The notes under the pieces: model-generated
Database searches by the model: none
What the model saw: the letters and a program-made list of their open reading frames with translations, nothing else
Told to the model about the DNA's origin: nothing
IMG/VR virus record: IMGVR_UViG_3300015371_000005
Span: 64,001 to 112,325 of that record
Origin: a virus
Reading direction: 5' to 3' (one strand)
Length of the DNA stretch: 48,325 nucleotides
In this document: piece after piece, positions 7,155 to 30,257 of the stretch
How the letters are laid out: every line of letters starts with the position of its first letter
How positions within the stretch are numbered: position 1 is the first letter of the stretch
Translations under genes and position numbers: made by a program

Positions 7155-7501
7155 TGGCTATCGAGCCGAGTTCTGACAACCTGCCACCCGGCGAGCCCAC
7201 GGAGCTTGGCTGGATGCTCTCCTGTTCGGGCGTGCATCCTGAGGCGGTCAAGATCGTGGAGAGCCTTCAGGCCGAGGTCAAGCGGCTGCGGATCAACTAC
7301 GAGGCTGAGAAGGCGCGCGCGCTTGAGTATGCGCACGGGTGGGAGCGCGACCGGGCCGAGGCCGAGCGGCTGCGGCAGGCGCTGGAAGAGATCGCGAAGC
7401 TGGACGCAGACGATGCCGACCCAGGGTACGAGGCGAGCCCCGACTACTGGGTCGGCGTCGGTAGCGCAAGCGATATCGCGAAGGAGGCTCTCGATGGGTG
7501 A
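7154..7501 (+). CDS. Coiled-coil protein
   Basis: 115 residues. The start overlaps the previous TAA. Residues about 30-80 form a long charged helix with heptad spacing (AVKIVESLQAEVKRLRINYE; WERDRAEAERLRQALEEIAK), suggesting a dimeric coiled coil. The C-terminus is acidic and Tyr/Trp-containing (DPGYEASPDYWVGVG). Small proteins with such coils are common and functionally unassigned in phages. Confidence 0.65.
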   Translation: MAIEPSSDNLPPGEPTELGWMLSCSGVHPEAVKIVESLQAEVKRLRINYEAEKARALEYAHGWERDRAEAERLRQALEEIAKLDADDADPGYEASPDYWVGVGSASDIAKEALDG

Positions 7502-7550
7502 CGTAACGCCGGTATGACTCTAAACCAAGTTGACGAGGAATGAACTGGAC

Positions 7551-8108
7551 ATGGCTGATCTGCGCCGAGCGAGGACGAAGACGAAGAAGCAACCGTTGGG
7601 CGCACTGGCCAAGGCCAAGATACGGAAGAACACGAGCGAGCCGGTAAGACCGTCACTGGCGGCACTGAAGGCGCGCAAGCAGGCCGGTCCAGCACTAGCC
7701 CGGATCAAGGAACGCAAACGCAGTCCCGACGACTTCACTGTCAATGGAGTTCTGTACCACAATCCCCGAGTAATAGAATTTCGTGGCGATTCACCGCTTG
7801 GCACGGTCGATGTGACAACCGGGATCAAGACATACAGGATGTCAAATCAGGCCGGCTCATGGATGTACCCGCTCCCTGACCACAAAGGCTACTTCAAGGA
7901 ACCTGCCGCACTGGGGCTCGGCGGCCAGCTCGAAGTCTGCACCAACCTGAACGCACGATTTGCTAGGTATCTGAAGGAACAGGGTATCCTTACCGCTGCA
8001 CAGAAGCGCGTTCAGCGCGATATGCAGGAGAAAGCTGAGCGCAAGCGCCAGTTCCAGCCCAAGCGCTCGCTAGCAGCGCTCAAGACAAGGAAGGGGAAAA
8101 CTAGTTGA
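7551..8108 (+). CDS. Basic protein with repeated SLAALKxRK motifs
   Basis: 185 residues from ATG 7551 (MADLRRARTKTKK); GAGGA lies 11 bases upstream, and an in-frame TTG at 7530 is less likely. Basic tails flank a globular middle. The motif P-L-G-A-L-A-K-A-K-I-R-K (about residues 16-27) recurs as RPSLAALKARK and, at the C-terminus, KRSLAALKTRKGK. The middle (VNGVLYHNPRVIEFRGDSPL, then TVDVTTGIKTYRM) is beta-rich. The basic repeats suggest nucleic-acid or virion-DNA association. Family unknown. It overlaps the next gene. Confidence 0.6.
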   Translation: MADLRRARTKTKKQPLGALAKAKIRKNTSEPVRPSLAALKARKQAGPALARIKERKRSPDDFTVNGVLYHNPRVIEFRGDSPLGTVDVTTGIKTYRMSNQAGSWMYPLPDHKGYFKEPAALGLGGQLEVCTNLNARFARYLKEQGILTAAQKRVQRDMQEKAERKRQFQPKRSLAALKTRKGKTS

Positions 8109-8395
8109 CATTCGTCAGGGGTGACCGACTCACACAAGACTGCAAGATCGTCATCTCCTACAGGGGCACGAGCGACCCCTACTGTGAGGTCGTACCGCGC
8201 TATTCCCGCAGTCTTGGACCGCACGCCGAGTTCTACCGGATCACCGGCAATGACAGAGAGCTTGTCCTGACCCTCGGCTGGGGCGGGCTGAACACTCTGA
8301 TCCGGTGGCTGCCGCTCGTCCGCTCGGCAGCGCGCAGGATGGAGGCCAGCGACCGCAGGACCGACCCGGACAGCAGGATTGACACAGTTGCTTGA
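8105..8395 (+). CDS. Small TTG-start hypothetical protein
   Basis: 96 residues. TTG 8105 overlaps the upstream TGA and has an AGGAAGGGG stretch about 10 bases upstream. Beta-rich N-terminal half (DCKIVISYRGTSDPYCEVVP) and a C-terminal helix with hydrophobic core (GLNTLIRWLPLVRSAARRM). No family recognised. Confidence 0.6.
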   Translation: MTFVRGDRLTQDCKIVISYRGTSDPYCEVVPRYSRSLGPHAEFYRITGNDRELVLTLGWGGLNTLIRWLPLVRSAARRMEASDRRTDPDSRIDTVA

Positions 8396-8408
8396 CTTCC
8401 GCTAAACT
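8379..8408 (+). promoter_or_regulatory. Sigma70-like promoter before basic HTH gene
   Basis: A perfect TTGACA (8379-8384) is separated by 18 bases from TAAACT (8403-8408), which matches 4 of 6 -10 positions. It lies 30 bases before the start of the basic HTH protein at 8438, with a good AAAGGAGG site between. This is the best-placed -35/-10 pair I see in the left arm. Confidence 0.5.
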
Positions 8409-8437
8409 GACAATCACCACCACCAAAGGAGGATTCG

Positions 8438-8944
8438 ATGGCAATCATCAAGACCAGAGGGACAGCCAAGGCCAAGCCCTCGACCAGCACCAAGCCCGCT
8501 CGCAGGAGCACGGCCAAGGAGACAACCAGCACCAAGCGGACGGCCAGCATCAACCGCTCGCCCAAGACCGACCTGTCTCAGGCTCAGCTCAACAAGGTTC
8601 TCACCCCGCTGAGCAAGGCAGCCAAGAGCCGCAACAGGAATCACGATGCCTGGAAGGAAGACGTTGCGACTGTCAATGAGCTGATCGTCACTGGGCTCAG
8701 CGAAGAGATCCCGGTCAACATGCTCGTGGAGGCAGCCGATGTCTCCCGCCAGCACGTCTACAAGATCATCTCCGACATCGAGGAAGGCAAGCGCACCAGC
8801 GATGGCCTGGCCACCGGCAAGGCAGGACGCAAGCCCGCCGCTGCCACCAAGCGGTCAGCCACCAAGACGGCGACGCACAAGATCGGCCGCAGCGCCAGCG
8901 TCAAGCCGAGTGCCGGCAAGAAGCGCATCATCCGCGCTCGATGA
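8438..8944 (+). CDS. Histone-like basic protein with central helix-turn-helix
   Basis: 168 residues with an AAAGGAGG site. Residues 1-45 and about 120-168 are Lys/Ala/Thr/Arg-rich disordered tails with repeats such as KPARRSTAKETTSTKRTAS and KPAAATKRSATKTATHK, like H1 or actinobacterial Lsr2/HupB tails. The core about residues 45-120 is helical and ends in an HTH-like segment (IPVNMLVEAADVSRQHVYKI). This suggests a nucleoid-associated or silencing-type DNA-binding protein, or a phage DNA organiser. It has its own promoter-like sequence and overlaps the next gene. Confidence 0.65.
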   Translation: MAIIKTRGTAKAKPSTSTKPARRSTAKETTSTKRTASINRSPKTDLSQAQLNKVLTPLSKAAKSRNRNHDAWKEDVATVNELIVTGLSEEIPVNMLVEAADVSRQHVYKIISDIEEGKRTSDGLATGKAGRKPAAATKRSATKTATHKIGRSASVKPSAGKKRIIRAR

Positions 8945-9141: not shown

Positions 9142-9175
9142 CAACTTATTTACACCACAACAAGGAAGGTGACGT

Positions 9176-9553
9176 ATGAGGAAGTCAATCGCGGGCCTTG
9201 CGCTCGCGTTTTGCATGGTAGTAGCGGCACCAGCGTCTGCGGATTACAACTGTCCGCCCCCGCCGCCTCCGCCTCCGTGCGAGCACAAGCCCCCGCCGCC
9301 GCCCGAGCAACCGCCCCCGGTTGTGACGCCGCCGCCCGTGGTGACGCCTCCCCCGGTTGTCACCCCGCCTCCGGTTGTCACTGCACCGCCGCCGGTCGTC
9401 ACACCGCCAGCTCCGGTTGCCGTTCAGCAGCCGCCGGTGGTGACACCTCGGCCCAAGGCGAAGCCCAAGCCCAAGCCGCACAAGCCCAAGAAGCACGTGC
9501 ACAAGAAGAAGCACAAGAAGCCGGTCAAGCGCACTCCCCACTTCACGGGCTGA
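9176..9553 (+). CDS. Secreted proline-rich protein with basic tail
   Basis: 125 residues, AAGGTG site upstream. Residues 1-22 are a Sec signal peptide (MRKSIAGLALAFCMVVAAPA, cleavage after ASA). The mature part has two Cys in poly-Pro context, then tandem PPPVVT units (about six to seven copies, residues 47-80), then a Lys/His/Pro-rich basic tail (KPKPHKPKKHVHKKKHKKP). Pro-rich repeats span cell walls, and Lys/His-rich tails can bind wall polymers or nucleic acid. It may act at the host envelope. It is the last gene of the + strand half and is followed by hairpins. Confidence 0.75.
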   Translation: MRKSIAGLALAFCMVVAAPASADYNCPPPPPPPPCEHKPPPPPEQPPPVVTPPPVVTPPPVVTPPPVVTAPPPVVTPPAPVAVQQPPVVTPRPKAKPKPKPHKPKKHVHKKKHKKPVKRTPHFTG

Positions 9554-9568
9554 GTGCTATACCATCGT

Positions 9569-9609
9569 CCAGGTTGGGCCGGGGCTGAAGTGGCCTCGTC
9601 CTAACCTGG
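9569..9609. terminator. Stem-loop 1 of convergent intergenic region
   Basis: CCAGGTT (9569-9575) pairs with AACCTGG (9603-9609) around a GC-rich loop. It follows the last + strand gene by 16 bases. No T-run, but the position suggests transcription end or protection of the transcript 3' end. Confidence 0.45.
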
Positions 9610-9617
9610 AACAGGGG

Positions 9618-9675
9618 AGGAGCCCCGCAATCCAAGGTCTTGTAGGGGGGTCGGGACCTTGGAAGCGGGGCTCCT
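9618..9675. ncRNA. Stem-loop 2, nested structure like 4239-4305
   Basis: Outer stem AGGAGCCCCGC (9618-9628) pairs perfectly with 9665-9675, and inner stem CCAAGGTC (9632-9639) with 9655-9662, leaving a 15-base G-rich loop. The two-stage build and the purine-rich arm resemble the element at 4239-4305. Function unknown. Confidence 0.55.
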
Positions 9676-9709
9676 TGACAGCGTGCGAGGGGTGAGGCGC
9701 ACACTGTCA
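9676..9709. terminator. Stem-loop 3 of convergent intergenic region
   Basis: TGACAGCGTGCG (9676-9687) pairs with 9698-9709 with one mismatch and a 10-base loop. It sits between the + genes ending at 9553 and the - strand gene ending at 9732, so it may be a bidirectional terminator. Confidence 0.5.
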
Positions 9710-9731
9710 GCATTCAATCTATCACCGTAAG

Positions 9732-10250
9732 TCAAGCCACCCAAACATGGGTGCGATCGACAACCTCTTCTGCAACGTCATAGACAAGCTCGCAGATCCA
9801 TTCGCCATGCACGTCGGGGAGGAAGCTCCCGTAGAAGTGACCGCTATCTTCAGGGTCCTCCGTCATGGTCACGGGGATCGCTTCACCGTCCGGATCAGTG
9901 AGGTTGACAACGACATCTCCCGGAGTAGCTGCTTCCTTGGTGATGATGTCGTAGAAATGAACTTGCATCTGGACACGCATGCCGACAACTGGATTTGGGC
10001 GATCCAGCACGCTGCCTTGACGCGCCGTTGAGATCTTCAAACCGCCACTTACCAATGTACTTGCTTCTGCCGGCAACGTGAGTGGAGGTGCCGCTTCCCC
10101 CACTCTTGTGCGCACCTCTTCGGGCGATGGCAGAGCAACCGGGCGCGCTGGCGCAGGACCAACACGCAAGCGACGAGGAGCCGGGTCAGTGCCAACCAGT
10201 CGGCGCTTCAGCTCTTCTGGTTCACCCGTTCCTACCAGCCGCTCGGTCAT
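9732..10250 (-). CDS. Ig-like structural protein, tail-associated
   Basis: 172 residues. The N-terminal third is Pro/Arg/Ala-rich and probably disordered. Residues about 85-172 have the spacing of an Ig/Big fold (MRVQMQVHFYDIITKEAATP; VVVNLTDPDGEAIPVTM; SGHFYGSFLPDVHGEWICEL). Such domains decorate phage tails and baseplates. Its start overlaps the stop of the baseplate-like gene upstream, so it is translated with the tail genes. It is the last gene of the leftward unit. Confidence 0.65.
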   Translation of the reverse strand: MTERLVGTGEPEELKRRLVGTDPAPRRLRVGPAPARPVALPSPEEVRTRVGEAAPPLTLPAEASTLVSGGLKISTARQGSVLDRPNPVVGMRVQMQVHFYDIITKEAATPGDVVVNLTDPDGEAIPVTMTEDPEDSGHFYGSFLPDVHGEWICELVYDVAEEVVDRTHVWVA

Positions 10251-10696
10251 CGGATATCGTCGTCAATCTGCCAGACAGGGTTGTTTTCCTTGCTGCTCGG
10301 GAACGTCATCGTCTTCGGAACGCCGAAGACAGTCCGCTTGCATTCGATCTCGATCTCGAACAAGCCAGTCTGCGCCACGCCCTGTGTGGCAGGCTCAAAG
10401 CGGTAACGGCCCTTGTTCGCCGGCACCGTGATGTACGTGCCCGAGCCGATCGGCCATTCGACCTGGACGTTTGCCCCCGCGCCATCGTTGTCAAACACAT
10501 TTACGCAGGTACCGTGGTTTGGCGTATCGCTGTCGATCACCCACACAACGCCATTGACGGTGGCCTTGGCCAGGAACCGCATTGTCCAGCCCGAGAGATC
10601 AGCAGGGCCGTTCTGATCGAACAGGACGCCGGTCACGGGCTCCCAAGTATCACCTCGCTTGCTGGTTCGTGAAGGGCTCTGTTGAACAGTAGGCAT
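10247..10696 (-). CDS. Baseplate/BppU-like N-terminal domain protein
   Basis: 149 residues. The N-terminal pattern SKRGDTWEPVTGVLFDQNGP, then ADLSGWTMRFLAKA, matches the G-D-T/D-W...G.P.DLTG..v.f signature of phage baseplate upper protein (BppU) and related tail-fibre attachment domains. This is followed by an Ig-like or jelly-roll C-terminal part (GTYITVPANKGRYRFEPATQ). It likely attaches receptor-binding proteins to the tail tip, next to the 791-residue adhesin. Confidence 0.7.
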   Translation of the reverse strand: MPTVQQSPSRTSKRGDTWEPVTGVLFDQNGPADLSGWTMRFLAKATVNGVVWVIDSDTPNHGTCVNVFDNDGAGANVQVEWPIGSGTYITVPANKGRYRFEPATQGVAQTGLFEIEIECKRTVFGVPKTMTFPSSKENNPVWQIDDDIR

Positions 10697-10704
10697 TACT
10701 TCTC

Positions 10705-13080
10705 CTATCCTCGTGCGTAGTCTTCGATCGTGACGAGCTTCTTATCAACGTCATTCACGGACATCTCATTGAACTGATCGTCCGTGTCAACGAACTTGTA
10801 CTGAACATCCTGCATGGCCAGCAAGGAAGTGGCGGCTTGAACTGTTGTCAGGAGAGACGGGACAGCCTCGACAATTACGCTTAGCGGGTAGACGAAATCA
10901 ACGATGGAGACGAAGGCAGTGCCTTGGAATATCCAATGATCTCCAACAATGAAAATGTCTGGGATGTGGAACGCCCGCGCGAAGATGCGAGCGTCCTGCA
11001 ACGCTATGAATTCGCTGATTGGCAGGAAGTGCTGCGAGACCGGAATGAACAGCGTATCCGTGATTGCCAGCGCTTCTGCCACGCTCTGGTTGAGAACTAC
11101 ACCGCCGGGGGCAAAGAGAACATTGAGCCCATCGGCGGCGAACAAGCTTTCCGGAATCAGAATGGCAGCAGCCGATGCCGGACTCTGCGTATCAGTGAGG
11201 GCAAGCGATTCGGGAATGACCAGCAACTGCGTACCGGTGGTGATCGCCGCATCGGTCATTGCCAGCGTGTCAGGGACAACCTGGAAATGTCCGGGCTGGA
11301 ATGCTCGTGCGTCTGTGACACCAAGATTGTCGCTGATACCCTGATTGAACGCTGTGCCGCCGGTAATGACTTCATGGCCCGAGGCGGTGACTGTGCCCTT
11401 ACCGCTGACGCGAGCACCAGGCTTGAGCATGAAGACAGGGGCAAAGCCACCCATCTCTGTGCGGAAGCTGTGGATCACCGCACCGGTCGGGACGCCGTTC
11501 ACGGTCTCTGTGATTGACAGCGAGTCGGACAGAGACTTCAGCAGGCCGCCCGTGCTGGCCACCACATCCGCTACGGCAAGCGAGTCAGACAGCGCCTTGG
11601 TGTAGCTCGTAGGCCCAGCAGCCGGCGTGACAAGCGAAACGTCGGCAACCTCAACACTGACCGTATCGCCAGTGGTTGAGACTCCCCACACTCGCAGCTC
11701 AAGATCAAGGTAATTGGTGATGAGCGCGGCATCGGCATCGGCAATCGCCAGCACATAGTCAGCCAGAGATGTCGTCAATGCACTTGTTTCAAGATCCCCC
11801 GAGCGATTGAGAGGTCCTTCGTACAGCGCTGCCCGGATCGCGACTGTGCCTGTGCCGCTCGTCTTGCGCGCTCTGATGTGAATCTCGTGGTTTGCCCTAG
11901 CCGTGGGCGCACCACCGGACTCAAGCGAGAGGCGCGCTACCGGCGTGGCTGTAGTGCCGCCTGGCAGCGTCGAGCCTACTTCGCTATCGGTGAGCGCTAG
12001 AGATTCGTTGAGCGTCCTGACCCAGGCTGCCGTGCGTGCTACGACATCGGTCACGCCCAGCGCTTCAAGCGGCAGCGTGCGCTCGATGTTCGGCGAGCTG
12101 CCAGCCGTCAAGATCAGTGAGTCAAATTGAAATGATCCGCTGCCTGACAGACCGCCGATTCGCAATGTAACTTGCGAGCTATCGGCAGTCGGTGTCCATG
12201 ACATCGTTACCGTGCTGTACGACAACGTGGAACCGACGACAATCTGCCCGGTATCAGTTATATCCGCAAGTACATTGTCACCGAATCTGAACCTTGCAAA
12301 GGCTTGTAGACCGGTACCTGTCACTCTGACTGATAGCGTGTACTCAATACCAGCGCGGAAGATACCCGAGAAGGTTTCCTCAAGGTAGTTCGTGTCGATG
12401 GCTGTCGAATCGGTGCCGGGGGTCCAGCGCAGCGCACCAGGCGCCGTATCAACGTTAGTCGTGACACGGGACATCGTGCCAGATGTAGGCTGCAATGTCC
12501 ATGACGTTAGATCAACGTCAAAACTCGGGTTGTCAGGAACCGGAATGCCGGCTGTCAAGACAGGCACATTGACATCTACGATACCCAGATTGTCTGGGAT
12601 CGTCGCTCGCCCATCCCTGAGCGTTGTCCGTGCGTCTGTGACTGCCAGGCTGTCAGCTATCGTCTGCGTGCGTGCTATGCCATGGATGGAGGAGTTAGAA
12701 TCCGTGATCCCCAGGGCATCAGGAATAGTCTGCACCCAGGCCGGGACAGGCGTAACAAGATTGATGTCAGCTACTTCTACATTGACAAGATCATTGGTCG
12801 ATGAGAAGCCCCAGAAACGCAGCTCAAGATCGGAGTAGCTTGAGATGGTTGCTGCGTTGCCATCCGGGATGGCCAGCGTGTACGTCGCCAGCGAAGTTGT
12901 CAATGCTGTTGATTCAAGATCACCCGAACGATTGGTGACGCCCTCATAGAGCGCTGAACGCAGGGTAACGGTGCCGGTGCCTGAGACCTTGCGAGCGCGA
13001 ACGACGATGGAGTGGGCGGTACGGGTAACTGGCGGCCCACCGAAACCGAGTGATACACGAGCAACGGGGGTGATTGACAT
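10705..13080 (-). CDS. Large multi-domain tail adhesin with CBM-like domain and ITD repeats
   Basis: 791 residues, Ser/Thr/Ala-rich. Residues 1-110 form a beta-sandwich domain (VARVSLGFGGPP...IVVRARKVSGTGTVTLRSAL...YEG). A second copy lies at about 373-482, and a third in the protein at 28221-30257. Residues about 178-328 (PDNPSFDVDLTSWTLQP...FRAGIEYTLSVRV...GSGSFQFDSLIL) look like a CBM4/9-type carbohydrate-binding jelly roll. Between and after these are about a dozen degenerate copies of a short motif such as IADSLAVTDAR and IPESLALTDTQ. It is probably a tail fibre or receptor-binding protein acting on cell-surface sugar. A glycosyltransferase is encoded immediately upstream. Confidence 0.7.
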   Translation of the reverse strand: MSITPVARVSLGFGGPPVTRTAHSIVVRARKVSGTGTVTLRSALYEGVTNRSGDLESTALTTSLATYTLAIPDGNAATISSYSDLELRFWGFSSTNDLVNVEVADINLVTPVPAWVQTIPDALGITDSNSSIHGIARTQTIADSLAVTDARTTLRDGRATIPDNLGIVDVNVPVLTAGIPVPDNPSFDVDLTSWTLQPTSGTMSRVTTNVDTAPGALRWTPGTDSTAIDTNYLEETFSGIFRAGIEYTLSVRVTGTGLQAFARFRFGDNVLADITDTGQIVVGSTLSYSTVTMSWTPTADSSQVTLRIGGLSGSGSFQFDSLILTAGSSPNIERTLPLEALGVTDVVARTAAWVRTLNESLALTDSEVGSTLPGGTTATPVARLSLESGGAPTARANHEIHIRARKTSGTGTVAIRAALYEGPLNRSGDLETSALTTSLADYVLAIADADAALITNYLDLELRVWGVSTTGDTVSVEVADVSLVTPAAGPTSYTKALSDSLAVADVVASTGGLLKSLSDSLSITETVNGVPTGAVIHSFRTEMGGFAPVFMLKPGARVSGKGTVTASGHEVITGGTAFNQGISDNLGVTDARAFQPGHFQVVPDTLAMTDAAITTGTQLLVIPESLALTDTQSPASAAAILIPESLFAADGLNVLFAPGGVVLNQSVAEALAITDTLFIPVSQHFLPISEFIALQDARIFARAFHIPDIFIVGDHWIFQGTAFVSIVDFVYPLSVIVEAVPSLLTTVQAATSLLAMQDVQYKFVDTDDQFNEMSVNDVDKKLVTIEDYARG

Positions 13081-14356: not shown

Positions 14357-15574
14357 CTAACAACTCCCTGGCGCGCAAGCCTGTCTTGCACCAACGTCGC
14401 CACCGTCTGTTGCTGTGCCCTTACCGGGACTGTTAGACGCTAGCGCCCAGCCAGCCCATGTCGTCGGCGTGCTGCCACCAACGTAAATCGGATTAGATAT
14501 GTTGTTCGTCTGCGTGCAGCCAGTGCAGTTGCCAATGTTGAAACCACCTTGACTGATGTTGTTGGAGATGTTCGCGTTGGTCGTTGTACAGTTACCAGGG
14601 TTGCCTCCATAGATCTGGAGGTTCGTGTTCGGACCGAACGTGTTGTGTGCAATGAGAGGGCTCGGCGAGCCGGTAATCACAACGGCGTTTGCAGCGCTTG
14701 CAGGCTCCTGATAAAACACATTGTCGGTCATCTCTGTGTAACCTGAGTTACAGTCGAAATCAACCGCGAGTGTTGAGTTGTTGTAGAAGTAGTTGCCTCT
14801 GACCCTGACGTCGCTGCACCCGTAGCACTGGATCGAATCGCAGTGAACCACTCCGCAGCCGCCCTCCAGAATGTTCTGGAAGGTGTTGCCCGGCCCGATG
14901 ATGATTCCTCTGGGCTCACCAGTGCCCTGGATGCCATCCGACGGTCCAGAACCCGTGAAGGTGCTGTTCTTGACCTGGATGTTCTGGTTGACCGACTTTG
15001 ACGTGTTGAGACCGTGGATGCCTAGGCGGCCCTCCGTGCAGCTTTGACCAATGTTGTTGAAGACGATCTTGTCAATAAGGATGTTGTTAGCGACGTTCTG
15101 CGGAGCTTGGATGCAGGCGTTGCTGTTTGAGGTGAAGTTCGAGATCTGTAGGTTCGTGCCAGATGATGTGTTGGTGCCGATGGCAAAGCCAGGAATCGTC
15201 CCCGGCCCCTCGATGCGGATGTTGTTCGACGTGCTCATCGACAGCGACGAGTACGTAACACTGGCGCCTGGAACCGGCTTGACAGTCGTCAGCGATGCCT
15301 TGCTGACCGCTGCGTTGTAGCTGTACGTGCCATTGTTCAGGCAGAGAACCCCTCCTGCCGGCACGCTGGCGAGCGCGGTTGACACGCTGCCCGAGCTGAT
15401 CGTGGAGTCGCAGGTACCGGGAGGTGGTGGCGTGACAACCGTCGTACCAACTGCGATAGCGATGGCACTGGCAGCGATTGTGCCAGCCACGAGAATGCGA
15501 GCCCTTGCAACGCCGCGCTCGCTACGTAGCAAGCCAATCAGCACTACAAAGAACCGCTTGATTGCTTCGCTCAC
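14357..15574 (-). CDS. Membrane-anchored right-handed beta-helix protein
   Basis: 405 residues. The N-terminus is basic, then a hydrophobic segment (about residues 24-48, ILVAGTIAASAIAIAVGTTV) acts as an uncleaved anchor or signal peptide. From about 55 onward the sequence has the Asn-ladder and short strand-turn repeats of pectate-lyase/parallel beta-helix folds (NNIRIEGPGTIPGFAIG; NILIDKIVFNNIG; VRVRGNYFYNNSTLAVDF; LIAHNTFGPNTNLQIYGG). Cys residues occur in pairs, compatible with disulfides outside the cell. Beta-helix proteins often bind or cut polysaccharide. Its export signal is odd for a tail spike and suggests a role on the infected cell or envelope. Confidence 0.65.
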   Translation of the reverse strand: MSEAIKRFFVVLIGLLRSERGVARARILVAGTIAASAIAIAVGTTVVTPPPPGTCDSTISSGSVSTALASVPAGGVLCLNNGTYSYNAAVSKASLTTVKPVPGASVTYSSLSMSTSNNIRIEGPGTIPGFAIGTNTSSGTNLQISNFTSNSNACIQAPQNVANNILIDKIVFNNIGQSCTEGRLGIHGLNTSKSVNQNIQVKNSTFTGSGPSDGIQGTGEPRGIIIGPGNTFQNILEGGCGVVHCDSIQCYGCSDVRVRGNYFYNNSTLAVDFDCNSGYTEMTDNVFYQEPASAANAVVITGSPSPLIAHNTFGPNTNLQIYGGNPGNCTTTNANISNNISQGGFNIGNCTGCTQTNNISNPIYVGGSTPTTWAGWALASNSPGKGTATDGGDVGARQACAPGSC

Positions 15575-19620: not shown

Positions 19621-19622
19621 AG

Positions 19623-19696
19623 TGCCCGCCCAGGGACTCGAACCCTGTCCGCACGATGCAAACCGGCGGGGCTCTCCATTGAACCAAAAGGCGGGC
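19623..19696 (-). tRNA. tRNA, atypical; anticodon ambiguous (UGC Ala or GCA Cys)
   Basis: The 7-bp acceptor stem GCCCGCC/GGCGGGC with discriminator A and a perfect T-arm (CAGGG-TTCGAGT-CCCTG) are clear. A D-arm GTTC-AATGGA-GAGC is present but is separated from the acceptor by five bases instead of two. The anticodon arm pairs as CCGC/GCGG with mismatches before the loop TTTGCAT. Read as a 7-base loop, the anticodon is TGC (Ala); GCA (Cys) is possible if the loop shifts. No encoded CCA. It may be degenerate or non-standard. It lies in a gap between small genes. Confidence 0.7.
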
Positions 19697-20373: not shown

Positions 20374-20568
20374 TCACTTCTTCTTCCACTTCCTGGCGTT
20401 GAGCGCAAAGGTGGCACGCTTGCGAGTCTTCGGATTCTTCGACTTCTTCAGTGCTCGCAATTTGCTTACCGGAATCTTCTTGCCCTTCTTGACCTTGGCT
20501 GCCTTACGCAGCTTGCCACGATTGGCCTTTTTGATCTTGATGCCACCCTTGCGCCTACGCCTTGCCAT
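20374..20568 (-). CDS. Small basic protein
   Basis: 64 residues: MARRRRKGGIKIKKANRGKL, then KGKKIPVSKLRALKKSKNPK, then RKRATFALNARKW. The KGKKIPVSKL...RKRATFALNARKW phrases recur in small proteins from actinobacterial phages of unknown role. It starts in a TAATG overlap with the peroxidase gene stop, so it is translated after it. Confidence 0.65.
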   Translation of the reverse strand: MARRRRKGGIKIKKANRGKLRKAAKVKKGKKIPVSKLRALKKSKNPKTRKRATFALNARKWKKK

Positions 20569-21974
20569 TACTCCTCCGGTCTACTTGTCACGCCGGCAAA
20601 CACGAGCAGATCAGACAAGCTCATTTCGCCATCATCTCCAGCCATCGATTCGCTGGGTGTGAACGAACGGTTGAGATAGCTGTTCGGATCGAGCGCCAGC
20701 AGCTTGAGGAACACCTCTGCGACGATTCTCGCGCCCACTGGGCCGAGCACGCGCCCTCCATTGACACGCTGCGACTCAGCGAGGATGTAGTACCACAGCG
20801 GCGTCCCTGTCTGGAATCCAGGACCGAGATTGAACGACGGTGCTGGAATCGGCCTGATGCCCATCCGCGCGGCGACAACCTGTCCACTGGGCAGCCCGTA
20901 GAACTTGGCTCGCATCAGGTTCCTGAATGCAAGCACATTGCTGCCACTTGCCTCAGCCCCGGGGATCGGCAGCTCGAACAATGGCGCAGAGATCAGCGTG
21001 TCAATCTTGCGACTGATGTTCGCATTGGCAACGTCTTCCTCATCGGCCGGATCTTGCAGCTCGGGGAAGAAGTACTTCCACTCGATTCCATGGTTGCCTA
21101 ACGGATGACCTCCTGACAACTGGTCAACGCTTGGATCAAGGCTGAAGACAGGCACCTTGACACCGAGGAAATCGTTGAGGAAGTACGCAGCTCGCACCTG
21201 AGAGTGCCCGAAACGATAGGCAGCGACCGAGAACTCGACCGGCGTCATGGGATCAGACGCCGAACTCGGGTTGTAGAAGCGAGTCCTTACTGTTCCGTTA
21301 GAACTCAGGATCGAGTCAACGACGTTCTGACCAACGATGTGCGGCAGGAAGTCATGTACCACCGCCCACTGATAATGCCATTGCAGGATGCGTTGAGCTT
21401 CAGTAAACGAATGGCCCTCGTCAATCAGGCGGTTGTGCGCTCTCAGGAACGCAGCATGAATCTGCCCGATAATCTGATTCTCGTCGTTACGACCCTCAAT
21501 CAGAATTGCTGAGCCATCTGGATTGCGTGGTAGATCTTGAAAGCTGTCTGTCAGTTCCGGCAGTGATGTCGCAGCAGGTAGCTTGAAATGCACTCCATCA
21601 GCCTCGTAGAGCTGAGGACTGGCTGCCGGTCCGCCGCCATAGACGCTATCGAGATCAAACCTGAATGTCCTTCCGTTTGTGAGTGTGCTTGGATCGACTG
21701 GCGCTGACGGCTGAGGACTCGTGTCCAGCGTCAAGTCGTGATCTATGAACTGCCCGAAGTACGTGAAACCTGAACCGGTCTCATTTGGGAAGCTTCCGTT
21801 ATTCTCGCTGTCAAGGCCCGGATCACGCTGCGTCTGCGCAAGATCTGCGAGCTGCTGATTGGTCGGGGCCGTAAAACCAGGCAAGCTCGGAAACATCGAC
21901 CCAAACTTGCTTTCTGCGCCTGCCGTGGCTGGGAATCCTAGAACTAGGATTACAGCTAGTGCGAGGCGTTTCAT
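20568..21974 (-). CDS. Secreted animal-type haem peroxidase
   Basis: 468 residues from ATG 21974, with AAAGG about 10 bases upstream; an in-frame TTG at 21980 sits too close to that site. Residues below are numbered from the TTG form. Positions 1-22 are a Sec signal peptide (cleavage near AGA). FGQFIDHDLT (75-84) holds the distal Gln77, the haem-linked Asp80 and the distal His81. GRNDENQ (163-169) supplies Arg164 and Glu167 with myeloperoxidase-like spacing, followed by FLRAHNRL (178-185). AYRFGHS (254-260) gives proximal His259. All key catalytic and haem-binding residues of the peroxidase-cyclooxygenase superfamily are therefore present. Bacterial members use H2O2 to oxidise halides or organic substrates outside the cell. 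I know of no phage example. It has no adjacent partner; it may kill competitors, modify the surface or detoxify peroxide. Confidence 0.85.
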   Translation of the reverse strand: MKRLALAVILVLGFPATAGAESKFGSMFPSLPGFTAPTNQQLADLAQTQRDPGLDSENNGSFPNETGSGFTYFGQFIDHDLTLDTSPQPSAPVDPSTLTNGRTFRFDLDSVYGGGPAASPQLYEADGVHFKLPAATSLPELTDSFQDLPRNPDGSAILIEGRNDENQIIGQIHAAFLRAHNRLIDEGHSFTEAQRILQWHYQWAVVHDFLPHIVGQNVVDSILSSNGTVRTRFYNPSSASDPMTPVEFSVAAYRFGHSQVRAAYFLNDFLGVKVPVFSLDPSVDQLSGGHPLGNHGIEWKYFFPELQDPADEEDVANANISRKIDTLISAPLFELPIPGAEASGSNVLAFRNLMRAKFYGLPSGQVVAARMGIRPIPAPSFNLGPGFQTGTPLWYYILAESQRVNGGRVLGPVGARIVAEVFLKLLALDPNSYLNRSFTPSESMAGDDGEMSLSDLLVFAGVTSRPEE

Positions 21975-21986
21975 AAGCAATTACCT

Positions 21987-22394
21987 TTACAATAGTGATC
22001 TTCTGCTGTGAGCACGGCGAGCTTGCGCCTTGTCAGTCTGGATGTAGGGCTCCACCTCCCCTGTCGCTAGTTGTGCATGGTCTGCCAGGCGAGCCAGTAT
22101 GAGAAGCTCTCCGTCAACCTCAAAGACCATCGCTGGCTTGGCTCCATCGCCATGGCCTGAGTAGCCACGGGTACCGCGAATCGTCTCTCTCCACAACAAT
22201 GAAATTGCTCGCATTGAGGTTGACGCAATCGACTCGCTGGCCTTGACCGAGTAGACGAAATGGCCCTTGTCACCAGCATCGAGCTTGATGAACTTCATTG
22301 AACCTGAGCCAGGGACTAGCCTGCCGCCAGTGATCTCGGCCACGCGCCGCTCAGCATCGCTACCAATCTCGTTACTAGTCCTCTTCAATTTCAT
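21987..22394 (-). CDS. Holliday-junction-resolvase-like PD-(D/E)XK nuclease
   Basis: 135 residues from ATG 22394; an in-frame TTG at 22409 is a weaker start. The order E15 (AERRVAE), GGRLVPGSG at 23-31, D42 (DAGDKG) and YSVKAS (48-53) follows the small phage/archaeal Hjc-like resolvase pattern, where GGR.QPGSG precedes the D...ExK catalytic core. The expected Glu before Lys is replaced by Ser (S49-V-K51), so the active site is either altered or uses another acid. It overlaps the upstream gene by 20 bases. It may process recombination intermediates; a separate RuvC-like gene lies at 38547-39050. Confidence 0.6.
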   Translation of the reverse strand: MKLKRTSNEIGSDAERRVAEITGGRLVPGSGSMKFIKLDAGDKGHFVYSVKASESIASTSMRAISLLWRETIRGTRGYSGHGDGAKPAMVFEVDGELLILARLADHAQLATGEVEPYIQTDKAQARRAHSRRSLL

Positions 22395-22662
22395 AATCTC
22401 CGTCACCAATCTTGGCTTTCATGCGGATCAGCATCGTCTCAAGGATGCCGATCTGCACATAGATGCGCTGCGATGAGCACCATAGGAACGGTGCTTCGAT
22501 CTCATCATCGTTGTTCACTCGTGACGACACGATGCCAATGATCATGAACTGATCGAGCGTGAGGTCTTCCACGTTGTCATCACGCCGATCGTGATCATCG
22601 AGCATCGCATAAAATGCCTCAGCACCCTTCTTGATGCGCTCAAGGTCGTGTTCGCTACTCAC
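22375..22662 (-). CDS. Hypothetical helical protein
   Basis: 95 residues from GTG 22662, which overlaps the zinc-ribbon stop and has GAGG 7 bases upstream; the longer frame up to 22776 overlaps that gene heavily and is less likely. Acidic, with two helices (ERIKKGAEAFYAMLDDHDRR; IYVQIGILETMLIRMKAKIG). Not recognised. Confidence 0.55.
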   Translation of the reverse strand: MSSEHDLERIKKGAEAFYAMLDDHDRRDDNVEDLTLDQFMIIGIVSSRVNNDDEIEAPFLWCSSQRIYVQIGILETMLIRMKAKIGDGDYEIEED

Positions 22663-24048: not shown

Positions 24049-24061
24049 TTTAGTTTCTCCT
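24044..24061 (-). promoter_or_regulatory. Conserved TTG-start leader copy 2
   Basis: AGGAGAAACTAAATTGGC precedes and includes the TTG start of the gene at 23761-24048, matching the copy at 19208-19225. It overlaps the stop codon of the papain-like gene. It may be a recent duplication or a selected leader. Confidence 0.55.
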
Positions 24062-24791
24062 ATCTATCTGTTGGAACGCCGATCTCGCCGTCTTCTTTCC
24101 ACAGGCGATTCATCGTTTCAAGTGGCATCCGTACCAAATGCGGATAGCCGCGTCCCCATGAGTTGATCAGATCGACGTATGGAATCCCGGTGTAACCCAG
24201 AACAGCAGACAGATCGCTCATCGAGCCGATCCAGCGATAGGCTGAGATCCCTTCCGCCAGCACGGGCTTGCTTGCGTACTTGGGGATGATGCCCTTGTTC
24301 TTGAGCACACTCAAGCCGGCTCGCACGCTCGTGCCCTCATACTGCGGCTGAGCCCCAGGATACTCTCCTCCCGGCCATTCATCTATACGCTGTGCTTCGT
24401 AGTACAGCCAGCGCCCTTCAGGGTCATCCGCGCGGATCTCGTACTGCTTGCGGTTCATCAGCGACATGATCCTTGAGCAACCGAATTGCACACAGCGACC
24501 CTCGTTGCCCTGGTCGTAGTAGTCCCACCAGCTCGTCAGATCAGTTGCATAACGATGCTTGAGTGCAACGCAATGCCCACCCTCCAGTTCACCTAGATTG
24601 TTGGGGTCAAGCCCTATCCAGTAGGCATTGTTCCTGTAGACAGGCTCATCGAAATCTGAATACCAGTTGATCCCGATGACAACTGGGGTAGGTGGCATCA
24701 CCGCCAGCATATGAGCGCCGAGCGGATACTTGTCAACATGTTTCCAATCGCTTGGAGGCAAGCGATCTAACTGCGGACGTAGCTGAGTCAT
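24060..24791 (-). CDS. Papain-like cysteine peptidase with permuted order
   Basis: 243 residues. QGNEGRC (Gln94 and Cys100, spaced six apart as in papain Gln19/Cys25) lies in a G-x-C-x2-F-G-C context. NSWG at 210-213 matches the conserved Asn. The expected His segment (GGHCVALKH, His73) and its preceding strand PVVIGINWY (36-44) are placed before Cys100, whereas in papain the order is Cys, His, Asn. This looks like a circular permutation of the C1 fold rather than a random match, because the flanking phrases (YEAQRIDEWP, EGTSVRAG) also fit phage papain-like proteins. It may mature virion proteins or act in the host. Not secreted. Confidence 0.65.
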   Translation of the reverse strand: MTQLRPQLDRLPPSDWKHVDKYPLGAHMLAVMPPTPVVIGINWYSDFDEPVYRNNAYWIGLDPNNLGELEGGHCVALKHRYATDLTSWWDYYDQGNEGRCVQFGCSRIMSLMNRKQYEIRADDPEGRWLYYEAQRIDEWPGGEYPGAQPQYEGTSVRAGLSVLKNKGIIPKYASKPVLAEGISAYRWIGSMSDLSAVLGYTGIPYVDLINSWGRGYPHLVRMPLETMNRLWKEDGEIGVPTDR

Positions 24792-24995: not shown

Positions 24996-25232
24996 TCATC
25001 TCTGAAGCTGATCCACTCCAACATGACGATTCTCTGTTGGCTTGGCAGCCCCTAGTTGATCGATCGGCGCGTACTCGACGGGCCGAACGGCGATGCTCCC
25101 TTGCGGTGTGATGAACATCTGCATCTCTGACGTTCCACCGTCAACGCCAATGCAGTTTACAACTCCTCTGGTCGGGTCTATGGAAGCCACAGCCTTCGGC
25201 TTTAGATCTTCAAATCCCCGTAGGTAGCTCAT
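24996..25232 (-). CDS. Small hypothetical protein
   Basis: 78 residues (MSYLRGFEDLKPKAVASIDP...). Beta-rich, containing VVNCIGVDGGTSEMQMFITP. No family recognised. Start overlaps the endolysin stop. Confidence 0.55.
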   Translation of the reverse strand: MSYLRGFEDLKPKAVASIDPTRGVVNCIGVDGGTSEMQMFITPQGSIAVRPVEYAPIDQLGAAKPTENRHVGVDQLQR

Positions 25233-25897
25233 GACATAAATGATGTAACAGAGTCCATGTACAGTTCCAGCGCCGCACGAGCTGTTGGCCCTGGCTTGGC
25301 TGTTTCAGATACCTTGACTTGTGTAGCGCCCTCCTCTCTCGCGATGTAGGATGCGTAAGCCGGCGCGTTCCAGGCACCTGCTGCCAGTTCCCAGCGCCGA
25401 CGCATGTTCTCTAGGCCAACGAATTTGTCAAAGTACTTGCGTTCGTTTGAGGCCAGCGCACTGATGCTGACCGGGACGTTGAATCCATCCTTGGGCTCGG
25501 TGTGTGCAGTGTTGCGCTGTGCGACGCCGGCATCATACGTATTGTCATCACGTAGCGGTGAGTAGTTGCCGAGACGACAGCTAGATTCATGAGAGAGATG
25601 ACCCATCAGCAGCCCTTGTGGGAGCCGCTGCATGTTCGTCTCTCTCACCGCAATCTTGTCACACAATCTGATTTGAGTTGTTGGCCCAGCCAAGCCATCG
25701 GACAGAATCCACATCGCACCCTGGGCAAGCTTGATGGCCTTGGCTGTGTTTGGACCGAGGACGCCATCGAACCCCATGGGATCAACCCCAATGGCCTTCA
25801 ACGCCGTCTGGAGCGCATACACGTCTTCTCCAGACATCATTGGCGTCGTCAACAACAGGGTTCGATAGCGCTGATAACTCGGGTAGCTTGTGAACAT
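25229..25897 (-). CDS. Endolysin: peptidoglycan-binding plus lysozyme-like domain
   Basis: 222 residues. Residues about 20-75 are a PG_binding_1 domain (DVYALQTALKAIGVDPMGFD...GVLGPNTAKAIK). Residues about 85-190 look like a lytic transglycosylase/lysozyme fold: LLMGHLSHESSCRLG with candidate catalytic Glu104, then YDAGVAQRNT (121-130) and LAAGAWNAPAY (171-181), which match SLT motifs II and III. The enzyme would cut the glycan strand of peptidoglycan at lysis. It has no signal peptide, so release needs the adjacent holin. It starts the lysis cassette together with the holin, M15-type peptidase and L,D-transpeptidase. Confidence 0.75.
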   Translation of the reverse strand: MFTSYPSYQRYRTLLLTTPMMSGEDVYALQTALKAIGVDPMGFDGVLGPNTAKAIKLAQGAMWILSDGLAGPTTQIRLCDKIAVRETNMQRLPQGLLMGHLSHESSCRLGNYSPLRDDNTYDAGVAQRNTAHTEPKDGFNVPVSISALASNERKYFDKFVGLENMRRRWELAAGAWNAPAYASYIAREEGATQVKVSETAKPGPTARAALELYMDSVTSFMS

Positions 25898-27145: not shown

Positions 27146-27577
27146 TTAGTAGATGAAGACAGGGATTCCCAGCCCTGCCTTCTTGTAGAGATCAACAAAG
27201 TCGTTGACATTCATGCGAATGCAGCCATGCGATGAGAGCGTGCCGAGCTGCGGGTCGAACTTGGTGCCGTGAATACCCACCCCGTCGGTGTTGGCGATCG
27301 ACATGAACCCACCGGCGAAAGGGTTCTTGGGATCATCGAACTTCAGGATCTGTCCGCGCATCTCTTCGGGCACCCAATCAGCATTTGGTGCCTTCCAATC
27401 TGGTTTGCGCGTCTTGCTCTCAATGAAGTAGAGCCCAGTTGGAGTCTCGTGCCCAAGTTGACCGAGCGTGATCTGACGCGCCAGTTCGACTGTGTAGGTA
27501 TTGAGCCTCAACCGCCAGAGCTGTAGCTGGAACCCAGCGGTGTCGATGATTATGATCTTGGGCGTGAGGCGTAGCAT
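27146..27577 (-). CDS. L,D-transpeptidase (YkuD)
   Basis: 143 residues. The YkuD signature is intact: IHGT (His103) and SSHGCIRM (115-122) with catalytic Cys119 and Arg121. Family members cross-link peptidoglycan via L,D bonds or attach proteins to it. The family in bacteria is usually exported, but here there is no signal peptide or membrane segment, so it would act only after lysis, through the holin, or within the virion. Its placement beside three other murein enzymes suggests cell-wall remodelling or hydrolysis in the lysis programme. Confidence 0.8.
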   Translation of the reverse strand: MLRLTPKIIIIDTAGFQLQLWRLRLNTYTVELARQITLGQLGHETPTGLYFIESKTRKPDWKAPNADWVPEEMRGQILKFDDPKNPFAGGFMSIANTDGVGIHGTKFDPQLGTLSSHGCIRMNVNDFVDLYKKAGLGIPVFIY

Positions 27578-28066: not shown

Positions 28067-28224
28067 AGCGGACGCTCCATGAAGTACACCCAGCCGCAGC
28101 TCCAACCCATCTCACGCCCACACTTGGGCCGGCAGCGGTGCGGGTTGAAGCACTTGCGTCTGCCATCGAACCAAACGCGATCGACGCCACGGTAGCTGAA
28201 GAGGGCTAGAACACCAGGGCTCAT
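28063..28224 (-). CDS. Small Cys-rich protein
   Basis: 53 residues: MSPGVLALFSYRGVDRVWFD...CFNPHRCRPKCGREMGWSCG. Four Cys and one His arranged C-x4-C-x3-C-x7-C suggest a zinc finger or disulfide-bonded peptide. ATGA overlap with the upstream adhesin. Not recognised. Confidence 0.55.
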   Translation of the reverse strand: MSPGVLALFSYRGVDRVWFDGRRKCFNPHRCRPKCGREMGWSCGWVYFMERPL

Positions 28225-30257
28225 GTCGTCCAGTTCCCAGCAAGATCCTGAGCGAAGATCTTCAGCGAATGCTCGCCATCACCAGCCGGCAAGCTTGTTG
28301 CATCGATGGTTGTCACCTGATCATCACTGGCCGGGACTGCGCCTCCACTGGCCACGAGCGTCCCATCCGTATGCGTAGCTCCCCCGGCACCGGTAAGATC
28401 ACGGATCTCCCATGCTTGACAAGCTTCATCTACATTCCAGGTGACATCCGTTGTGGTATGCCCTGCAACCAAACTGACTCTGGTTGCCGTCTCAGACACA
28501 TAGACGGTTACCGGCGGCGTAGTGTCGCCCGAAGCGGATTCTGTAGTTACATTGTCAGTGATTCCCAGTGCATCAGCAACAGCGTTAGCGAACTCAGCCA
28601 GCGTGGCGTTGGCATCGGTGATTCCGAGTGCGTCGGCCAGTGCAGAGAAGTACTCTGCTGCGCTCACATTGGCGTCTGTGAGCCCTAGAGCGTCCGCAAC
28701 GGCAAGTCCTATGCCCTTCTCTGAGAGTGCATCCGTGATCGCTGGATTGTCAGCAATTGTGTTGGCAAACTCTTCGATGAATGATTGGGCATCCGTCAGT
28801 GCAATTGCATCTGCGATGGTTGAGGGGAAGAACTCAGCCGCCGGTGTGTTCGCGTCAGTGATTCCAAGTGCATCTGCAATCGACTTGCCAGGCTCAAATG
28901 CCCTTGCATCCGTGATCCCAAGAGCATCAGCAAGGGATAGCTGAGGTTCAAGCGACCTCGCATCCGTGATGGCAATTGAATCGGCAAGCGATAGCTCTGG
29001 CTGGAGCGATCTTGCATCGGTGATGGCAGGTGAATCGGCAAGAGAAAGCCCCGGCTCGAACGCCCGCGCATCCGTCAACGCTATTGGATCGGCAATCGTC
29101 CTCTCGTACGTGGCGACAAAGGTCTCGGCATCAGTGATCGCAGGCGAATCAGCAATCGTCTGACCCCAGCCATGCTCAGAAACCGGGCTGTCAGTGATGG
29201 CAATCGAATCACCGATCGTCTGTGTCAGCGCAGCACCACTGGCAGCAGGAGCCTCCAGATACGCCTCATAGATGGTGACAACGATAGTGTCACCAGTCGG
29301 TGAATCAGCATGGATCTGAAGCTCAAGATTCGAGTAGCTGGTGATGTTCGCCGCACTGGCATCAGGAATGGTCAGCGTGTAATCTGCCGCCGAGGTTGTC
29401 AGACCACCAGTGGTGAGATCACCTGAGCGATTGTTGGCACCCTCATACAAGGCCGCCGTGATCGTTACCGTACCGCTACCTGATGCCTTCTTGGCCCGAA
29501 TCTTGATTGTGTGGAGCGTGCGTGTGGTCGGCTCGCCACCAGAAGCCAGCGACAACTTAGCTGTCGTTGTTGTCGTCGGAGCAGGAGCTTCCTTGATGCT
29601 AGCCGCAGCAATGCAGTAGTCATCTGATGTTGCGAAACTCCAATTGATGGTGTATGTGCCAGCGCTGGTGGCGGCTGTGCTGCGTGCTACATGCCCTGAG
29701 TTCGCGCCGGCATCAATGCCAATCCCTGCACCTGTGCCGCCCGAGAACACTTCCTCGCCCGTGCCAGGCACATAGCTCGATGGAGCAGCAGCACCGCCCA
29801 TGAGCCCGCCATAGACCATCGCGTTGGCTACGACAGTTAGGTTTGCAGTAGGATCAGCCGCCGTCGTCGTGTTCTTCTGGACGATCCCGTCGAGCGCGGT
29901 GTGACCCGTCGTTGATGTGCAGGTGTGTGCGTAAGCTACCTTGTTGTCAGTGGTACACCCCTGCAATGTGACTGTCTGCGTACCTCCGAGCGCAGTGCCA
30001 CCGAGATTGAGGAAGTAGATCTGAACATTGCCGCCCTCGCTCGTGTCCGTGGCTTCGGCAACCTTCGTCATCGCGGTGCCGCCATAGAGCACGCCTGATA
30101 CCACCGGCGTAGCGAGATCGCCAAGCACAATGACTACAGCACCGTCAGCACCCGCTGCTCCTGCATGTGAGAATGTCCTGTTTCCCGATGTCGTATCAAC
30201 AACGGTTGCGTCGGCGTTGGCCGGGAAGCGCGTAGCAGTATCGTGAGCGACAGCCAT
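28221..30257 (-). CDS. Large tail adhesin with twelve ITD repeats
   Basis: 678 residues. Residues 1-225 form a lectin-like beta-sandwich (FPANADATVVDTTSGNRTFS; DDYCIAAASIKEAP). Residues about 229-339 are the same beta-sandwich domain as in the 791-residue adhesin (LSLASGGEPTTRTLHTIKIR...YTLTIPDASAANITSYSNLE). Residues about 346-569 are twelve copies of a short repeat, e.g. LADSIAITD, IADALGITD. A C-terminal Ig-like domain (about 575-678) resembles that at the end of the 225-residue protein upstream. Its domain sharing suggests it and the 791-residue adhesin were assembled from a common kit for receptor binding. Confidence 0.7.
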   Translation of the reverse strand: MAVAHDTATRFPANADATVVDTTSGNRTFSHAGAAGADGAVVIVLGDLATPVVSGVLYGGTAMTKVAEATDTSEGGNVQIYFLNLGGTALGGTQTVTLQGCTTDNKVAYAHTCTSTTGHTALDGIVQKNTTTAADPTANLTVVANAMVYGGLMGGAAAPSSYVPGTGEEVFSGGTGAGIGIDAGANSGHVARSTAATSAGTYTINWSFATSDDYCIAAASIKEAPAPTTTTTAKLSLASGGEPTTRTLHTIKIRAKKASGSGTVTITAALYEGANNRSGDLTTGGLTTSAADYTLTIPDASAANITSYSNLELQIHADSPTGDTIVVTIYEAYLEAPAASGAALTQTIGDSIAITDSPVSEHGWGQTIADSPAITDAETFVATYERTIADPIALTDARAFEPGLSLADSPAITDARSLQPELSLADSIAITDARSLEPQLSLADALGITDARAFEPGKSIADALGITDANTPAAEFFPSTIADAIALTDAQSFIEEFANTIADNPAITDALSEKGIGLAVADALGLTDANVSAAEYFSALADALGITDANATLAEFANAVADALGITDNVTTESASGDTTPPVTVYVSETATRVSLVAGHTTTDVTWNVDEACQAWEIRDLTGAGGATHTDGTLVASGGAVPASDDQVTTIDATSLPAGDGEHSLKIFAQDLAGNWTT
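28551..29220 (-). repeat. Tandem ITD-repeat coding region
   Basis: Twelve units of about 17-24 codons, each with the core L/I-A-D-x-x-x-I/L-T-D (for example IADSPAITD, LADSIAITD, IADALGITD, VADALGLTD). DNA between units is partly conserved, so unequal recombination could expand or shrink the array. Confidence 0.75.

Follow-up and report, generated by a model that had tools for sequence, protein, structure and literature searches.

Animal immunity is the best-known setting of haem peroxidases of the peroxidase-cyclooxygenase (animal haem peroxidase) superfamily. Their defining features are the motifs GQxxDHD and RxxE together with a proximal His-Asn pair (PMC4420034). The single-domain, bacterial-type 'short peroxicins' of family 5 carry the same features, and their physiological role is stated to be unknown (PMC4420034). 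The window analysed here, a stretch of 48,325 nucleotides that spans bases 64001-112325 in a virus record 112,325 bases long, contains a gene for a protein of this superfamily (Table 1). A preliminary description, made from the sequence alone, had proposed an open reading frame encoding a secreted, animal-type haem peroxidase with all catalytic residues in place, packed with tight overlaps into a phage operon and without a described phage counterpart. It had named a profile search, a structure prediction, a phylogeny against bacterial members and a homologue search in phages as ways to check this. Each of these claims held on the evidence given below, the last within the libraries and literature searched, and the analysis goes beyond them in finding a whole phage lineage with two export routes.

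Table 1. Positions of the features discussed, in window coordinates unless another record is named
Record	Feature	Position	Strand	Details and basis
Window	Haem peroxidase coding sequence, animal-type	20568..21974	minus	468 aa; PF03098, AlphaFold2, Foldseek
Window	Start codon ATG of peroxidase	21974	minus	sequence
Window	Stop codon TAA of peroxidase	20570-20568	minus	sequence
Window	Likely ribosome-binding site AAAGG	21984..21988	minus	sequence
Window	Predicted Sec signal peptide, residues 1-20	21915..21974	minus	predicted cleavage AGA/E; sequence, hydropathy, low-pLDDT N-terminus in model
Window	Distal motif GQFIDHD (in FGQFIDHD)	21735..21752	minus	Gln75 halide site, Asp78 haem ester, His79 distal, Asp80 Ca2+; invariant in 24/24 viral proteins
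Window	Arg162-x-x-Glu165 (GRNDEN)	21480..21491	minus	catalytic Arg and second haem-ester Glu; invariant 24/24
Window	Proximal His257 (AYRFGHS)	21204..21206	minus	invariant 24/24
Window	Asn352 to Arg355 (NLMR)	20910..20921	minus	Asn352 is proximal His partner; Asn 19/24, Asp 4/24, one truncated
Window	Downstream 64-aa Lys/Arg-rich ORF	20374..20568	minus	sequence
Window	Upstream gene, resolvase-like	21987..22409	minus	phrog_2002; 54-56% identity to G012 and G015 counterparts
Window	Papain-like peptidase	24060..24791	minus	phrog_16701
L044	Papain-like peptidase	9167-9913		phrog_16701
L089	Papain-like peptidase	9253-9975		phrog_16701
L090	Papain-like peptidase	10808-11491		phrog_16701
Window	Endolysin-like gene with peptidoglycan-binding domain	25229..25897	minus	PF01471 and endolysin PHROGs
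Window	L,D-transpeptidase domain (YkuD)	27146-27577	minus	PF03734, 65.8 bits
Window	'DxLxITDA'-type repeat protein	28221-30257	minus
Window	'DxLxITDA'-type repeat protein	10705-13080	minus
Window	Right-handed beta-helix protein	14357-15574	minus	PF13229
Window	tRNA-Gln (TTG)	19622-19692	minus
L045	Peroxidase with apparent frameshift	9965-11311
L079	475-aa protein with signal-like N-terminus	7361-8788	minus	equals G012 67361-68788; no Pfam match

The window protein matched the Pfam profile An_peroxidase (PF03098) well above its cut-off of 25, at 56.4 bits (E 2.6e-15), and the family profile also matched lactoperoxidase-type, Dictyostelium PoxA, myeloperoxidase and DUOX chains among the PDB sequences. 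An AlphaFold2 model, with 38 homologues in its alignment, reached a pLDDT of 88.3 and a pTM of 0.90. Its best Foldseek match was a cyanobacterial peroxidase (8s6c, E 2e-17); the other solved matches were Dictyostelium PoxA, lactoperoxidase and myeloperoxidase, all of them, including 8s6c, with a probability of 1.0 and a TM of about 0.6. By pTM and Foldseek the prediction meets the criterion of a mainly helical fold around a haem core, with the reservation that the model was made without haem and that pocket distances were not measured. Residues Gln75, Asp78, His79, Asp80, Arg162, Glu165, Arg254 and His257 show no variation in the 24 viral proteins, and the catalytic residues of the window protein are invariant or nearly so among the 38 homologues. 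The proximal His-Asn pair of the superfamily is also present, as judged by sequence only, its geometry being unmeasured. Profile, motifs and predicted fold together show that the protein belongs to the superfamily; haem binding and activity are inferred. Since the active site is complete, we propose a catalytically competent enzyme, an inference from sequence and model that no assay supports as yet. In L103-L106, four viral proteins that make up a Tat-type subgroup, the proximal Asn is replaced by Asp, and the residue corresponding to Ser110 near the Ca loop is Gln; these replacements may tune the haem chemistry.

The N-terminus of the window protein, MKRLALAVILVLGFPATAGA followed by ESK after the predicted cleavage site, is a textbook Sec signal with a 12-residue hydropathy of 2.71. 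Here and in the relatives, export signals were judged by hydropathy and motif rules and not by a trained predictor (SignalP). By these rules, every complete protein of the viral clade except that of L045 bears a Sec or Tat signal. Sec-type signals were found in the window protein and in L044, L046, L047, L049, L088-L091, L093 and L108, and twin-arginine signals (for example MTDFTRRTFIRAGVLGGTVALLPWGGRAVAG) in L048, L092, L094-L096, L098-L107, L109-L111, L113 and L114; L097, called from an internal start, was excluded from the assessment. The proteins with Tat signals group in a single subclade (bootstrap 99). Among the bacterial relatives, only 9 of 78 have a strongly hydrophobic N-terminal stretch. 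That the host exports the peroxidase beyond its membrane is thus predicted from hydropathy and motifs, without export data. The L045 gene has an apparent frameshift before the mature part, with a signal-like stretch in another frame just upstream, which may reflect a sequencing error or a decayed start.

The peroxidase gene is tightly packed against its neighbours: its likely ribosome-binding site overlaps the stop codon of the upstream gene, and its own stop codon overlaps the start of the downstream gene as TAATG. Its GC content (0.56) is close to that of the flanking 5 kb on each side (0.556 and 0.569), and its GC3 equals that of its neighbours. The same-strand run of phage genes around it includes portal/head, UvsX-like recombinase, DNA polymerase III alpha and endolysin-like genes, all with clear matches; support for a terminase in the window phage is confined to weak PHROG matches and to IMG/VR relatives. 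Promoter and terminator scans gave scores no better than shuffled sequences, and no promoter was recognised. The window phage has almost no cultured relatives. Two collinear relatives (G012 and G015, of 108 and 113 kb) retain the upstream gene without the peroxidase. Because the gene lies within a virus record of 112 kb, with frames abutting its neighbours, an upstream gene kept in two relatives and a matching GC content, we assign it to the phage. The worry, raised in the preliminary description, that the contig might be chimeric with host DNA does not stand: 32 independent viral contigs and the related phages with the upstream gene refute it.

Several other genes of the window deserve mention in their own right. 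Close to the endolysin-like gene the phage encodes a peptidoglycan cross-linking enzyme, an L,D-transpeptidase. Two long repeat proteins resemble tail-fibre or adhesin arrays, and the beta-helix protein, downstream of the peroxidase and with a hydrophobic N-terminal stretch, is possibly an exported or fibre protein. The sole tRNA gene lies about 0.9 kb downstream of the peroxidase.

Successive alignment-based scans of IMG/VR returned 8, 35 and 32 loci, the last two agreeing on 32 phage-clade loci; a scan with a single-sequence pattern found no relative of the window peroxidase. The 32 further contigs are of phage type and come from 30 metagenome identifiers. They show that the peroxidase is a genuine phage gene present in uncultured phages, and, encoded in phage genomes amid phage hallmark genes, it meets the criterion for a phage accessory gene. 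Virion proteins of three carriers were closest to those of phages of Arthrobacter, Mycobacterium/Rhodococcus and Streptomyces, and a soil habitat of the carriers is inferred from this kinship of phages and their hosts. Three other loci (L050, L051 and L112) have host-like flanks and were set aside as phage members; L050 and L112 group among bacterial sequences outside the viral clade, and L051 is a near-copy of L050.

In a maximum-likelihood tree of 91 sequences, 23 distinct viral proteins and one Acidimicrobiia gene (L002) formed a single clade (bootstrap 100, SH-aLRT 99) nested inside the bacterial family. The clade remained unchanged after the addition of 11 more actinobacterial sequences. 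The wider bacterial family had a relative in 31 of 397 sampled genomes (eight percent) of the same phylum in our actinobacterial sampling. Computation shows that purifying selection acts on the peroxidase in the viral clade, with dN/dS of 0.18-0.31 across nine close pairs. The Acidimicrobiia gene, from MAG PFL8, is the sole cellular gene within the phage clade and carries a signal peptide; it is surrounded by cellular-looking genes, apparent transposase fragments and a cation-efflux gene, and may represent either a donor lineage or a capture from phage.

The position of the gene differs among the carriers tested, as judged from Pfam and PHROG matches. It lies between terminase and portal genes in L093 and between portal and capsid genes in L114, follows the capsid gene in L045 and L103 but precedes it in L098, precedes the tape measure gene in L106, and follows terminase and portal genes in L090, a lysin gene in L092 and a transglycosylase gene in L047. 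The slot varies even within one lineage, L044 and L089 differing from L090. Recurrent neighbours are same-strand structural genes and one papain-like peptidase family, present in four carriers: the window phage and three further phages in which it adjoins the peroxidase or lies close by. No co-encoded source of H2O2 was seen among these recurrent neighbours. In two carriers the peptidase overlaps the start of the peroxidase, and it is possibly a functional partner. In the cultured Arthrobacter phage Shambre1, with a terminase sharing 56% identity with its L093 counterpart, the terminase-portal gap that holds the peroxidase in L093 contains no more than a 70-codon-class ORF, and no peroxidase. 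The absence of the gene from this gap and from G012 and G015 supports its being a dispensable accessory gene that is mobile between phages. Within a few kb of the site that corresponds to the peroxidase locus, G012 encodes (in L079) a 475-aa protein with a signal-like N-terminus and no Pfam match.

We found no phage member of the family in PHROGs or NCBIfam models, no relative in 50,697 deposited phage records (INPHARED, tblastn with two different members) and no paper on a phage member in the open-licence literature searched. The viral structure library yielded no phage match and giant-virus proteins only, and plasmid records yielded bacterial-type relatives only, those listed having <44% identity. 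The enzyme superfamily is known; within these libraries and this literature, its phage lineage is apparently undescribed.

The reading that best fits the evidence, and which we favour by a modest margin, is that of a late, exported, active haem peroxidase working outside the host membrane; its activity, timing and export are all inferred. The gene would be expressed late, together with virion and lysis genes, as inferred from position and strand only in the absence of expression data, and the host Sec machinery would export the product during infection. By analogy with lacto- and myeloperoxidase, host-supplied haem would be linked to Asp78 and Glu165, and beyond the membrane the enzyme may oxidise small anions or phenolics with H2O2 present in its surroundings. 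The gene would be an accessory one, gained and lost among related phages. Difficulties for this reading are that a Sec-exported apoprotein has to find haem beyond the membrane, that no H2O2 source was seen among the recurrent neighbours and that location in the head module could also point to a part of the virion. As for the benefit, clearing of peroxide from the surroundings of the infected cell and of freshly released virions ranks first, although it has not been shown and we hold it less likely than not. Surface modification and counter-defence are the nearest alternatives, and the precise benefit is open. The functional options listed in the preliminary description (oxidants outside the host, an altered surface, protection from peroxide, or a moron) all remain unproven.

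Among the rival explanations, superinfection exclusion is possible, though not likely. The exported enzyme would oxidise or cross-link surface proteins and sugars (for example through dityrosine bonds), closing receptors against other phages and keeping progeny from being wasted on debris. The two export routes indicate work on or outside the cell surface, and glycosyltransferases lie near the gene in several carriers, such as L095 and L114. However, no cell-wall anchor was seen in the window protein on unsystematic inspection, no precedent was found in the literature searched, and a late gene would be less useful for this purpose than an early one. Counter-defence appears unlikely; here the peroxidase would oxidise redox-active compounds, such as anthracyclines, that soil actinobacteria secrete against phages. 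This explanation is favoured by the Arthrobacter, Mycobacterium/Rhodococcus and Streptomyces affinities of the carriers tested and by the record that many phages are inhibited by Streptomyces anthracyclines and aminoglycosides (PMC11536984), but the substrate is purely inferred and the hosts of the carrier phages are unknown. Such anti-phage compounds are believed to act intracellularly and at an early stage of infection, which fits poorly with this explanation.

We also doubt that the protein is a virion component, packed on or in the particle and acting at entry or in a matrix, for example on extracellular polymers. The peroxidase is often found among capsid, portal and tail genes, and the papain-like peptidase adjoining it in some phages also lies within the structural run; against this, canonical Sec and Tat signals would remove the protein from the cytoplasm, where virions are assembled, and the shifting module slot in the L044/L089/L090 lineage is unlike that of a structural gene. 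Lysogenic conversion, in which a prophage would express the gene as a moron that aids host survival of peroxide or competition in soil, would suit the accessory distribution and the tyrosine integrase of one carrier, L092. No other viral-clade record searched had a tyrosine integrase above the cut-off and none had a serine recombinase, although most records are fragments. No viral-clade copy occurred as a prophage in the sampled actinobacterial genomes, the only cellular copy being the Acidimicrobiia gene in its cellular-looking context. Because integrases are rare among these mostly fragmentary carriers, lysogenic conversion is mildly disfavoured, and we hold it to be improbable. We can all but exclude that the gene is a decayed relic or is host DNA that entered the contig through chimera formation or mispackaging. 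The wider enzyme family is bacterial and the three loci set aside have host-like flanks, but the frames overlap those of phage genes, GC and GC3 equal those of the neighbours, 32 further viral contigs carry the gene, and it is under purifying selection.

To return to the favoured reading of a late exported peroxidase, a clade that keeps its catalytic residues, adds two export routes and sits with late genes suggests that extracellular oxidative activity benefits phage infection. This points to a side of phage biology that plays out beyond the infected cell and for which few genes are known, involving peroxide, defence by small molecules and the chemistry of surfaces, and a phage peroxidase offers a compact and directly testable system. 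A bolder reading, which we could as readily accept as reject, is that soil actinobacterial phages evolved their own lineage of exported haem peroxidase, located among virion genes and transferred across unrelated phages, as an extracellular chemical tool that neutralises peroxide or anti-phage metabolites or seals the surface of the infected cell. To our knowledge no earlier phage-encoded extracellular redox chemistry of such a kind exists; if the bolder reading is true, this would be the first.

The described systems nearest to this lineage resemble it to different degrees. Orpheovirus, a eukaryotic giant virus, supplies the one viral protein of the structure library that is clearly a haem peroxidase (A0A2I2L5A1); this protein is 17% identical and is not close kin of the phage clade. 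The cyanobacterial TDX16 peroxidase (8s6c) and Dictyostelium PoxA (6erc) are the top structural matches and have a common active-site pattern, but they are larger, come from cellular organisms and are only 18-19% identical. Much closer are the An_peroxidase (PF03098) proteins found in actinobacteria, acidobacteria and other bacteria, for which 'heme peroxidase family protein' is a frequent annotation. They share about 30-50% identity over most of their length and identical active-site residues, and the viral clade is nested among them. Most of these begin with an HG...RG segment and have no export signal, whereas the viral proteins have a Sec or Tat signal instead. In size, bacterial kinship and motifs the window protein agrees with the family 5 short peroxicins, although the tree held no typed family 5 reference, and it differs from them in being borne by a phage and, as predicted, exported.
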